From Paramecium tetraurelia (Eukaryota > Ciliophora > Oligohymenophorea > Peniculida > Parameciidae), in assembly GCF_000165425.1 (NCBI RefSeq), contig NW_001799300.1, positions 124,001-188,000 on the forward strand: a stretch of DNA of 64,000 bases. The letters run 5' to 3'. Positions 54,635 through 59,749 of this stretch are shown here, one piece after another (positions within the stretch are counted from its first letter, which is position 1; each line of letters opens with the position of its first letter). Under the pieces are notes generated by a model. The model ran no database searches, had not been told where the DNA came from, and saw only the letters and a program-made list of their open reading frames with translations. Position numbers and translations under genes: made by a program.

Positions 54635-55039
54635 ATGGAAATTAAAGATATCAGAGATTGTATAAAAAGAGTTGATTTGATAGTTTAAATGATAGATGTT
54701 GTTAAATAAAATAAATATTTTAAGAAATATAATTAGTCAATTTGTTTTATTAATGTTGGGGAACGAGAAGAAAACAAGGGTGATTAAGTTGTTGGTTAAT
54801 AGAGTTTATATATGGAGTTTTCATATTATAAATATATGATTCAAGTTTTTAAGTAGTAGTTTTCTATAACTAGTATTTTTGGTTGCTAGGTTCTTAATTG
54901 GAATGGTTTCTTTGCTGATTATCTTAATAACGCAGGATCAAAAGGCTTTTTGGGTGTGGATGGTCTGATTAGTCTAGAATCCATAAATCGTTAAATAAAT
55001 ATTTAAAATAAAAATGGAAAGTGTGAATTTTGGTGGTGA
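54635..55039 (+). CDS. Hypothetical protein, 134 aa, overlapping the next gene
   Basis: Open frame MEIKDIRDCIKRVDLIVQMI ... FFADYLNNAGSKGFLGVDGL, ending TGA at 55037. The second half looks protein-like and less AT-biased. Its last 26 nt overlap the start of the kelch-phosphatase gene, so either this is a pseudogene end or the true stop lies earlier through an unseen intron. No family recognised. Confidence 0.35.
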
Positions 55040-57587
55040 TAATCCGTAGCCACGTTTCGGTCATACAATATGTGTAATAGCACCTAACAAGATTGCATTA
55101 TTCGGGGGTAGAAGCTATTAGTAGTATTTGAATAGGAGCAGTAGGAGACACAGGAAGATATGTGATCACGGGCGATGTGTATATAGGAGACATGACAACG
55201 AAGAAATGGAAGAGAATTGAAGCAAGTGGAAGTGTGCCAACAAATAGAGCAGCACATTAAGCATTAGCAATAGAATTGAATTAAATGATTATATTTGGAG
55301 GAGCTGTAGGTGGAGGAGGATTAGCAGATGATAATTTATATGTTTTTGAACTAAGAGATGATACAGGAACCTGGGTAACAGTACCAGTAATAGGTACAAC
55401 CCCTGGTAGAAGATATGGACATACAATGGTTTTGATTAAACCACATTTAATAGTGTTTGGTGGTAATACAGGTTAGGAACCTGTTAATGATGTTTGGAGT
55501 TTTAATTTAGAGAAATCTCCTTATTCTTGGTAGAAGTTGGAGTGTTCTTCTGAATAGCCGAACGTAAGAGTTTATCATTCTGCTGCATTATGTACAACAG
55601 GTTCAGCAAATGGAATGATGGTAGCATTTGGAGGTAGAACAAATGATCAAGGAGCTTTAAATGATACTTGGGGATTGAGGAAACATAGAGATGGAAGATG
55701 GGATTGGGTGAGAGCTCCATATAGAAATTAAACTGAGTAGCCATTATAAAGATATCAGCATTCAACTCTATTTTTGGGGACATTGATGATGGTGATAGGA
55801 GGCAGATCAAATAATGTTGGGGAAACTTTGCCTTTCGAAATTTACGATACTGAAACCTCAGATTGGTATAAGTTTCAGGCAATTCAAAGATTCAGACACT
55901 CCTCTTGGTTGATTGATTAATTTCTATATTTGCATGGAGGATTCGACTCTGATTAACCAAACATTCCAACAGAGGGCATTTTACGATTGAATTTGAATAC
56001 AAGATTTGCTTAGACTCCTTAATTGTTAAGACAAATGAATACTCTAAGGACTGATCAATCATTCACATAATCATTCAACCCAAGACCTCCAACCAACCAA
56101 ACATAGACTTAAGATTAATTTAGAAGAACAAATTAATAATAACCATAGGCCAGAAGTATAATTAACTATCATATTAGATTAAAATAATAATTAGTAAGTT
56201 CGAGTATCAAGTGCAACTAACAAAAATATCAGATTAGCAAATCAGGCTATTGTTGCTATGACTTATGGACCAGAAGAGGATATAACAAATTAGGTCAAGA
56301 AAGTACCAATTGACAAATTACAGGATGAACATAAGAAATTGGGAGCTGGATTTCATGATCCAAATTCTCAAAATAAATCATAGTTCTTAGATTAATTATG
56401 CCAACCTTTCGTTTAAAATTTATTGATACCAAAAGATTATCAATCAATTCCACCTAATTCTAATTTGTTGACTGGGATAAGAAAAGAGATGATAATTAAA
56501 TTGTGCGATGAGGTTCAACGAGTTTTAGATAAGGAACCAATAGTTTTAAGACTGAGAAGACCTATCAAAATATATGGAAATCTAAATGGTTAATTTTTAG
56601 ACTTGATGAGATTTTTTGATCATTTTAAAGCTCCATATGATAATTTGTATAACGGAGACATTGATTCTTAAGATTATTTGTTTCTGGGTGATTATGTAGA
56701 TAGAGGAACAAGATCTTTAGAAATTGTGCTATTATTATTCACATTGAAATTAAAATATGCAGATCAAATTCATCTACTTAGAGGACATCATGAAGATGCT
56801 AAAATCAACAAAATTTATGGATTCGCAGATGAGTGCTTTCTAAAATTTGCAGAAGATATCATGGATCCTAATAGCATATATTAGAGAATCAATAGAGTTT
56901 TTCAATATTTGCCATTAGCAGCAGTGATAGAAGATAAAATCTTATGTGTTCATGGTGGTATAGGCTAGACTATGCGAACAGTAGATGAAATCGAACTTAT
57001 TTAAAGACCATTGGAAATTGTACATGATCCAAAAACTGTATTTGAATTAATTTAATTTTAGTACTAACAAAAGATTGCTTTGGAATTGTTATGGTCAGAT
57101 CCGTGTTTGTCTGAAGAGGAATTAGAGAATCAACCAAATCCAGAGAGAGATATATTCTAAAATAGACAAATTATAAGGTTTGGTACAAATAGGGTAAGTA
57201 AATTCTTATAAGAAAACAATTTGAACATCATTATAAGATCGCACGAACCCACTCAAGAAGGATTCGAAAGACAAAATAATAATGTCATTACAGTGTTCTC
57301 TTGTCCAGATTATGGTCCCAATTCTCAAAATAACAAAGGATGTACCCTATTTTATTAAGACTTAAGCCATGCTCACTATTTCCAAGAGAGGTGAGATTAT
57401 TCCCAAAGTTATTTTACCTGCAAATTCTACTTCGGAATCAAGATGGATGGATCTAGAAGAAGCAATCCAAAGGAAGAAAGGATTTGCCAAATATGTAGTT
57501 ATAGATAATGATGAATTATAATGGAGAAAAAGATAGTTTACACCTCCCAGATCTAAGAAATCCTAATCTTAAAAGTAATTCGCATGA
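55014..57587 (+). CDS. Kelch-repeat protein phosphatase (PPKL/BSU1-like), probably catalytically altered
   Basis: About 832 residues with introns 55108-55135, 56156-56177 and 57342-57366. Residues ~1-350 form kelch repeats ([45 protein letters not shown]). A Gln-rich linker follows, then a PPP phosphatase domain (~460-800). This architecture is known from plant BSU1/BSL and apicomplexan PPKL. In the PPP core GDYVDRG and CVHGGIG are kept, but the usual GDxHG reads GNLNG and RGNHE reads RGHHE. Three metal-coordinating positions are therefore substituted, which suggests weak or no phosphatase activity. The 25-nt third intron restores [19 protein letters not shown]. In plants BSU1 acts in brassinosteroid signalling, and in Plasmodium PPKL affects ookinete shape. 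Confidence 0.9.
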
Positions 57588-57623: not shown

Positions 57624-59749
57624 TCATTATCCAAATATCTCTACGATTTATTGGGGATTCCAACTAGATCCGAATCCCCCTTGTTGATTATGATACTGTC
57701 CTGCTGCAGGAACAGGTAATACGACATCTTCAATCAGATAATCTGCAACTCCTGACAACATCTGTTATGATATCTATTTCTTATTATTGTTAAGTTCTTT
57801 TTATAAAAATAAACAATAGGATTTCTATAGCTTTGTCTTATCCTTGATGTATTGGTTGATGGTGGCTTGCATTTTGCTCATATACTATTGTAATTATTAA
57901 TTAGAATCCAAAATCTGAAGCGATGCTTTCTAGAGATTTACACTATTTAACAACGCCAAAGTGATTTATTTCAATCCTTGCTCATTTAATGAATTGTCCA
58001 ATCTAACAATTAATATTTAATGATATTTACAATATTGTTAATCTTAACTTTGTGATGTTTATGCTTTTCAATGACTTAGCTATATATTCCATCCCCTAAG
58101 ATCCTAATTTCAATCCTGAATGCACTTGAAAATTCACTTATTGATTAGTCAATGATTTCCCATATAGTTACATAATACATTTTTACACAACTTCAATTGA
58201 CAAGAATGTCCATTATTTAAGAACAACTATTTACTAAAATAAATCTATCATCTAATTGCATTGAAAATTGTTTATTTTCTTAATTATCAAACTTAAAACC
58301 TTTAATTGGGATTATTATAATTATTTAATAATTGAATCTACTGACTCTTACTCAATACTTGTGGATTTAATGAAGATTTTTAAATTTTAAAACAAATCCA
58401 TTTTTTAACTTAAAGTGTTAAACAGTATTTTTATTGATTGAATAGTATCCAATTAAATTTGAAGTGTCTATTTGATCTTTCTAATCTACTATGTATTTGT
58501 GGTTACTCTTAAGTCACTGTTAGGTGTGATTTGACCTATCAAATCTATTAAATCCAAATCTGAACAATCCTTTCCTTCACTTAATTCGATAAGTAACTTC
58601 TCTGTTCGTTCAAGAAAAGGCTCAATAGATTTAAAGCTTCCTTGCTTTATTGTACTACCCTTCTACAACTTAATATCCAATATCTTAATATTGCAATCTT
58701 AAAATAATTCACTTGAAATCAATTTGTGATGAGTTCCCAAAGACAATTTAACTTATTTTATGTTTTTTACTTCTTTGTATAAGATGTCATAATTGTTAAT
58801 GCCATAATTGTTACTAATGTATTAGAAATATAATCATACCCTAAGTTTAATTCTAAATTTTCTAATTTTCCAAATGATTTCACAATTTAATCAAAAGAAT
58901 TTTATGTTAAATTTCTGGTGTCATGCAAAAACAAATTGAGTAGTCTAAGTTGTTCAATTTTTTAAAGTGCTAAACCTAATTAAGTGATTGCTTATTCATC
59001 TATTTCGGTTTAAGCACCTATTGATAGATTCAATTTTTCTATATTGGGTTATGATGCCAACCATTTAAAGAAAGAATGAAATGATGTATCTAACTTATTA
59101 AATGGACTAATAAGCAATGTAAATTCCTTTAGAATCGAATCCTTTTGTGCTTCTTCAAAGTGTGACCAATTCTGATTCACGCAAACGCCTTATCCAATCT
59201 ACAACGAAATGGATTCCAATTTTTTAGATGTAATAAATTATAGATCCTTCAAACAAAGTGGTAATTCATCCCTATTAATATATATACTACTTACTCGAAA
59301 TTTAATTTTAAATGCACAAGTTGATTGTCATGATTTTATATTGCTTCCAAAATTGGTGATATTTACTTAATTGGATTATTCAAATCAAAATGAATGTCAA
59401 GAGATTTTAGATTTTTTTAATTTAGAATAAATTAAGCCAAAATTCTTCCATCTTCATCTGAAAATTGATTATTAGCTCTAAAAATCAAAAAATACTCATA
59501 CCCATATTTCAATTTAAAACTGCTCAAATCCAAATGGTTTAACGATAGGATTAAAGTTGAGTAATGCTAATAATTTAAAAATCCCCTAAAAATGTAAATA
59601 TGTTATTCATACTCAACAACAAGAGTTAAATTCTTGCATCCAATTTTATCTAAGACAACCTATTCAGAGGTCTGAATGACAATTTATAAATTCTCTGACT
59701 TTAAACATTAAATGTCCTCTTAATGTTAAATTGTGTGAGAAAGAGTCAT
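57624..59749 (-). CDS. Leucine-rich repeat (RNI-like) protein
   Basis: About 690 residues, multi-exon; introns 59272-59294 (23 nt) and 58003-58030 (28 nt) are clear, and at least one more is needed. Repeats of the ribonuclease-inhibitor type recur, such as KNLKSLDIHFDLNNP, IEKLNLSIGAQ and LDNSLNEQGLKQITLALLNS, with 26-30 residue spacing. The C-terminus (LQQYMSKMQATINQYIKDK) is helical and ends GFGSSWNPQQIVEIFGQ. Such solenoids mediate protein-protein contacts. No catalytic domain is visible. Ciliates have large families of this kind. The exact exon structure in the middle is uncertain. Confidence 0.65.

Follow-up and report, generated by a model that had tools for sequence, protein, structure and literature searches.

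A Paramecium kelch phosphatase with three substituted metal ligands as a candidate pseudophosphatase

A gene located at positions 55014-57587 (+ strand) of the window, i.e. the whole stretch of 64,000 nucleotides of Paramecium tetraurelia DNA that was analysed, is predicted to encode a kelch phosphatase (PPKL) in which three of the residues corresponding to metal ligands of other PPP phosphatases are substituted. The reading that we favour, with a probability of about 0.55, is that this protein is a PPKL turned pseudophosphatase, which would have lost the metal site M1 and kept M2 and would bind phosphoproteins with its kelch domain as a tether. Judged by its sequence, the protein is probably dead as an ordinary Ser/Thr phosphatase, and its role as a trap or scaffold is put forward tentatively.

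Gene structure and surroundings

The protein of 832 residues is obtained from four putative exons, all on the + strand, when these are read with the ciliate code (TAA/TAG = Gln). Exon 1 (55014..55107) contains the ATG start and kelch blade 1, the latter being joined in frame across putative intron 1 (55108..55135, 28 nt, GTA..TAG). Exon 2 (55136..56155) encodes the kelch repeats and a linker, and the kelch query from it (positions 55162-56155) matched the Pfam entries PF24681 (172 bits), Kelch_3, Kelch_4, and Kelch_1. Following putative intron 2 (56156..56177, 22 nt, GTA..TAG), exon 3 (56178..57341) comprises the linker and the PPP phosphatase domain, which matched PF00149 with 90.4 bits. Lastly, putative intron 3 (57342..57366, 25 nt, GTA..AAG), which has an atypical acceptor, precedes exon 4 (57367..57587), where the last PPP strand, the C-terminal tail and the TGA stop (57585-57587) are found.

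If intron 3 is left unspliced, an early TGA leads to a protein of 776 aa that breaks off within the final portion of the phosphatase fold; its splicing is thus required for reaching the last PPP strand and the tail. The mean intron length in P. tetraurelia is 25.1 bp and the GTA..TAG pattern is matched in 69.8% and 77.4% of two classes of its introns (PMC5663052); therefore, intron 3 is unusual rather than aberrant. Both the genetic code of the gene and the sizes of its introns are in keeping with Paramecium. The frame had been regarded as intact in the preliminary description of this gene, which holds if the atypical intron 3 is spliced, but not in the sense of one uninterrupted ORF, as three short introns are needed. 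The spliced frame has no internal TGA in its 832 codons. Read in its other frames, the same sequence has 26 and 31 (forward) or 11, 21, and 14 (reverse), and shuffling of its bases 2000 times gave a mean of 18.3. This difference favours a gene in use, although the integrity of the frame does not date the loss of the ligands.

None of the five flanking ORFs had a Pfam match at E 0.01. Downstream of the gene, convergent ORFs on the - strand (57624-59749) contain leucine-rich-looking stretches (LKVLSL, LRLTIL, LSLNHLDLSSF), and no Pfam match was obtained for the three of them that were tested. A repeat scan of the gene revealed three direct families with two copies each as well as two inverted pairs, which we take to be due to chance. 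A 22-nt repeat (56355-56376 and 57312-57333, 91% identity) is perhaps also of this kind; its later copy lies at the position of NYCGEFDN in PP1, where the window has DYGPNSQNN.

Relationship to the kelch phosphatases

In a phmmer search of solved structures with the PPP domain, the strongest of the best 60 of 93 matches were to chains of BSU1 (9tp7, E 9.4e-65; the other chain, 3.5e-64), followed by calcineurin (3.3e-47) and PP1 (6.3e-47). The match to BSU1 covers residues 45-363 of the query. In a phylogenetic tree of 14 rows, which contained neither PP2A nor PP5 and was constructed without two of the loci described below (L003 and L004) and with the window ORF from residue 45 onwards, the window protein formed a clade with BSU1 with support values of 96/97. 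The branch leading to it was long (1.74 vs 0.56 for BSU1) and its placement was flagged as unsure by the program. The protein exhibits the architecture of a PPKL, with kelch repeats in its N-terminal part and the PPP domain in its C-terminal part, the fusion of the two being dependent upon putative intron 2. Additionally, the PPP domain is followed by a tail of the IPKVILP type, which presumably resembles that of BSU1.

Based upon the Pfam matches for both domains and the proximity to BSU1 by E value and in the tree, the gene is assigned to the PPKLs, in agreement with the preliminary description. The domain alignment to other PPPs, of the kind that it had proposed as a check, has substitutions at the three ligand positions. 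Proteins of the PPKL/BSU1-BSL type are known from plants, green algae, Apicomplexa, and ciliates (PMC8249667), and in Tetrahymena two PPKLs have been reported along with a third homologue, the kelch domain of which is variant (PMC3143110).

A confident AlphaFold model built from 12 sequences (pLDDT 84.7) has a PP1-like predicted fold, the best match being 6dcx with TM 0.77/0.81 among the 50 of 176 matches listed (E up to 0.001). These 50 did not include any chain of BSU1, and the comparison of folds thus does not aid the question of subfamily. In such a model the PPP fold is drawn from homology whatever the metal state, and it is silent on metals.

Altered and conserved motifs of the metal site

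The first motif of the phosphatase domain, usually GDxHG, reads GNLNG in this protein (56576..56590, + strand; residues 505-509), and the third, usually RGNHE, reads RGHHE (56780..56794, +). In contrast, GDYVDRG (56687..56707, +), CVHGGIG (56945..56965, +), and RSHEP (57236..57250, +) are intact. Of the signature of active PPPs (GDxHG, GDxVDRG, GNHE), only motif 2 is hence kept. GNLNG, GDYVDRG, RGHHE, and CVHGGIG, which the preliminary description had listed as changed or kept in just this manner, were all located by reading of the frame, which they share. The DNA string of each motif occurs once on the + strand and not at all on the - strand of the 64-kb window, and the interval to which the feature had originally been assigned (56565-56805) encloses GNLNG as well as RGHHE. 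A single base separates each of the altered codons from a codon for the usual residue, viz. AAT/GAT (Asn/Asp), AAT/CAT (Asn/His), and CAT/AAT (His/Asn). An alignment slip as the source of these changes was rejected, as the flanks of both GNLNG and RGHHE are gapless in the alignments to other PPPs and the match to BSU1 is highly significant.

In PP1, M1 is bound by His66, Asp64, and Asp92, and M2 by Asp92, Asn124, His173, and His248 (PMC10066265). By these assignments, the equivalent residues in the window protein (numbering of the 832-residue protein) are Asn506, Asn508, and Asp543 for M1, and Asp543, His575, His630, and His727 for M2; Asp543, which bridges the two sites, lies within GDYVDRG, His630 within CVHGGIG and His727 within RSHEP. 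The acid His576, its partner Asp546, and the first clamp Arg547 are also kept, and we take these to be residues 125, 95, and 96 of PP1. The second clamp Arg, which we assume to be Arg221 in PP1, is probably Arg695, with an insertion of 3-4 residues alongside it and the gap placed otherwise by phmmer. The preliminary description had counted three substituted metal ligands, and this number stands, but the three are not equivalent: two of them serve only M1, and the third is an M2 ligand where His, which is a good metal ligand, may still hold the metal. Hence, as judged from the alignment, both private ligands of M1 are lost, and M2 could survive as a site of Asp and three His. The His of GNHE, which remains in RGHHE, has been named as the proton donor (PMC2175518).

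Specificity of the substitutions among PPP phosphatases

A scan of viral contigs with the window protein alone yielded no match, and neither did a search of plasmid DNA or one of phage proteins. Scans based upon alignments detected 11 loci from genome contigs as well as 38 and 41, largely overlapping, from viral contigs. The 53 loci that were fetched include near-copies and represent 33 distinct local stretches. No tblastn match to the kelch region of the window was found in these 53 loci (E up to 1e-3, codes 11 and 6; flanks of 1.5-3 kb, often less), so that these comparisons identify none of them as a PPKL.

The window domain was compared with 15 PPP domains, consisting of BSU1, the chains 6dcx and 8pq7, calcineurin A, and 11 of the loci (L001-L010 and L012); L011, with a match of only 71 residues, was left out, and L013-L053 were used solely for the motif count and the kelch check. 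Across these 15 sequences 24 columns are invariant, and the window retains 21 and loses three, all of which are metal ligands. The loss thus affects 3/5 ligand columns vs 0/19 of the others (Fisher p 0.005), and within the nine eukaryote-type sequences, where 38 columns are invariant, five are lost (Fisher p 0.011), both values being biased because the gene was chosen for its differing motifs and the compared rows are non-independent. Only columns that are aligned in every row were counted, which gives five for the ligands and excludes His248, as L003 and L004 break off before it. The losses relative to the eukaryote-type set are the three ligands together with G124K and D276E (numbering of the ORF from 56258). 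The core of the domain is therefore otherwise conserved, as had been proposed, and in combination with the PPKL identity and the three substituted ligands this upholds the designation of a candidate pseudophosphatase.

The motif GDx[VIL]DRG was present in 48/53 fetched loci (all except L019, L035, L038, L043, and L047). Within these 48, DxHG was found in 47 and GNHE in 46, whereas neither NxNG nor GHHE was found in any. DxHG was missing only in L022, which is cut at a contig edge, and GNHE only in L011, where the domain breaks off, and in L040, which has GNHD. By a stricter count, in which GDxHG and GNHE were both required, the number was 25/48, and motif 1 was then relaxed to DxHG.

Some of these loci merit separate mention. 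The contig DYPS01000025.1, assigned to a Desulfosporosinus MAG, carries two eukaryote-type PPPs (L003:1360-2280 and L004:101-934), which are open over the match only with TAA/TAG = Gln, and it is probably a ciliate contamination of the MAG bin. A contig assigned to a Quinella MAG (L001:772-1683) also encodes a PPP of the eukaryote type in which the three motifs are present, and it may derive from a eukaryote of that sample. Another such PPP, likewise with the three motifs and 36% identity to the window domain, is present on a 17.5-kb IMG/VR contig (L012:2040-3116).

A possible function and alternative explanations

A predicted phosphatase fold from which catalytic residues have been lost, as is characteristic of a pseudophosphatase, is found in this protein. 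In the mechanism that we envisage, the absence of M1 would remove the hydroxide activated by two metals and ordinary dephosphorylation would stop. M2, as Asp and three His, would hold a metal and stabilise the fold, and together with the arginine clamp it would continue to bind a phosphorylated partner. This partner may be recruited by the kelch propeller, in which case the protein could protect, sequester or scaffold a phosphoprotein that is otherwise dephosphorylated by an active PPKL. A destroyed M1 combined with an M2 that has gained a His is the pattern predicted where catalysis is given up and the fold and phosphate binding are kept.

Several experimental results bear upon this proposal. 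Activity of the Plasmodium berghei PPKL was abolished by an engineered change of GDXHG to GAXNG (PMC3434153); the window protein has the same His to Asn change, whereas its Asp is replaced by Asn and that of the mutant by Ala. The activity of PP1 needs both metals (PMC10066265, PMC10776994). Its H66K variant, in which M1 is unbound, is folded and stable and has been called a substrate-trapping variant, while H248K could not be purified, from which the authors conclude that the M2 metal is required for stability (PMC10066265). The H248N variant retained the M2 metal (PMC10066265); hence Asn can replace a ligand and some binding at M1 may remain. The plant protein BSL2 appears to bind its partner MPK6 by the half that contains the kelch domain (PMC9068801). 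From the PbPPKL mutant, the PP1 variants and the kelch half of BSL2, we infer a tethered phosphoprotein binder. In a more specific version, which we consider speculative and rather unlikely in its entirety, the protein would be a natural counterpart of PP1 H66K, i.e. a stable, M1-less and M2-bound trap for phosphosubstrates with a mononuclear M2 of Asp and three His, in which His and Asn have been exchanged between motifs 1 and 3, and it would act as a dedicated phosphoprotein reader competing with active PPKL paralogues. Since feeding of dsRNA silences genes in Paramecium (PMC5663052), the role of the kelch phosphatase could be tested.

The main alternative, which we nevertheless consider unlikely, is that the gene is a duplicate in decay. 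Gene or genome duplication would have left several copies of a kelch phosphatase, and this one would have been free to lose its activity and would still be at a stage before the accumulation of frameshifts. Three single-base changes suffice for it, but the three losses all fall upon metal ligands, and the 21 of 24 invariant residues that are kept include the acid His and the clamp Arg. The long branch in the tree points in its direction, yet a new role would account for it just as well as relaxed constraint, and the 832 codons are free of internal TGA where about 18 are seen upon shuffling, which does not give the date of the loss. Similarly, retention of intron 3 with its AAG acceptor truncates the protein to 776 aa, whereas its length of 25 nt is typical for Paramecium, in which 23-30% of introns deviate from GTA..TAG (PMC5663052). 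Redundancy is plausible in view of the two PPKLs and third homologue of Tetrahymena (PMC3143110), and the ligand change may be private to one gene copy.

An altered yet active enzyme, using an M2 of Asp and three His beside an Asn-rich M1 for slow or different hydrolysis or for other metal chemistry, appears improbable. It is favoured by the general capacity of His as a ligand and by the retention of His576 and Arg547. The H248N variant of PP1 is still metal-bound (PMC10066265), but PP1 requires both metals (PMC10066265, PMC10776994) and the PbPPKL with a doubly mutated motif 1 was inactive in the assay used (PMC3434153). It is most implausible that the gene encodes an ordinary active phosphatase and that its motifs result from sequencing or assembly error: a single sequence is available, but such errors would have had to place three separate substitutions exactly on three ligand codons, at two places about 200 bases apart, within well conserved surroundings.

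Comparison with known systems

The window protein resembles the PPKL/BSU1-BSL proteins in its N-terminal kelch and C-terminal PPP domains, in its best sequence match and in its position as sister in the tree. It differs from the PPKL of P. berghei, which keeps GDxHG, GDxVDRG, and GNHE and is active (PMC3447748, PMC3434153), in the change of motifs 1 and 3. Among the papers listed in our searches of the open-licence literature of PubMed Central, we found no description of a PPKL pseudophosphatase; the 'pseudophosphatase' of a paper on the radial spokes of Tetrahymena is STYXL1, which is unrelated. The laboratory-made PP1 H66K lacks the same M1 ligand that is replaced at N508 in the window. Similarly, the BSU1 chain 9tp8 has GNIHG where 9tp7 has GDIHG, which is the same Asp to Asn change as at N506; it also has RAKE for RAHE, whereas that His is kept in the window. 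From its difference to 9tp7, the chain 9tp8 appears to have been altered in the laboratory.

Replaced catalytic residues are also seen in the trypanosomatid kPPP and a second PP2B cluster, for which pseudophosphatases were proposed in a sequence survey of 2007 (PMC2175518); these belong to other subfamilies and the proposal was made from sequence. According to the authors of a study of 2023, PfPPP8 is the first pseudophosphatase of the PPP type to have been characterised experimentally (PMC10317984). Its family, from Apicomplexa and chromerids, shares with the window protein an alveolate PPP fold in which Asp residues that bind metal are replaced by Asn, but in PfPPP8 it is motif 2 that is changed (GNLINRG) and the spacing of motifs is different (PMC10317984), whereas the window protein has an unaltered motif 2 and substitutions in motifs 1 and 3. 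The word 'kelch' is absent from the main text of that paper (PMC10317984). The degenerate motif 2 that marks the PfPPP8 family is thus not found in the window, where GDYVDRG is intact; homologues of PfPPP8 such as TgBCC5 are, however, without obvious changes (PMC10317984), and therefore an intact motif 2 alone leaves a kinship with PfPPP8 possible. The term 'locked in' has been used for the active-site architecture of eukaryotic-like PPPs (PMC10214084). If our interpretation is correct, the window protein would represent a second loss of activity in the PPPs, in another subfamily and by way of the other two motifs, which would indicate that PPPs are convertible to binding modules, and that this conversion can proceed in one defined way, in which M1 is removed and M2 is kept.
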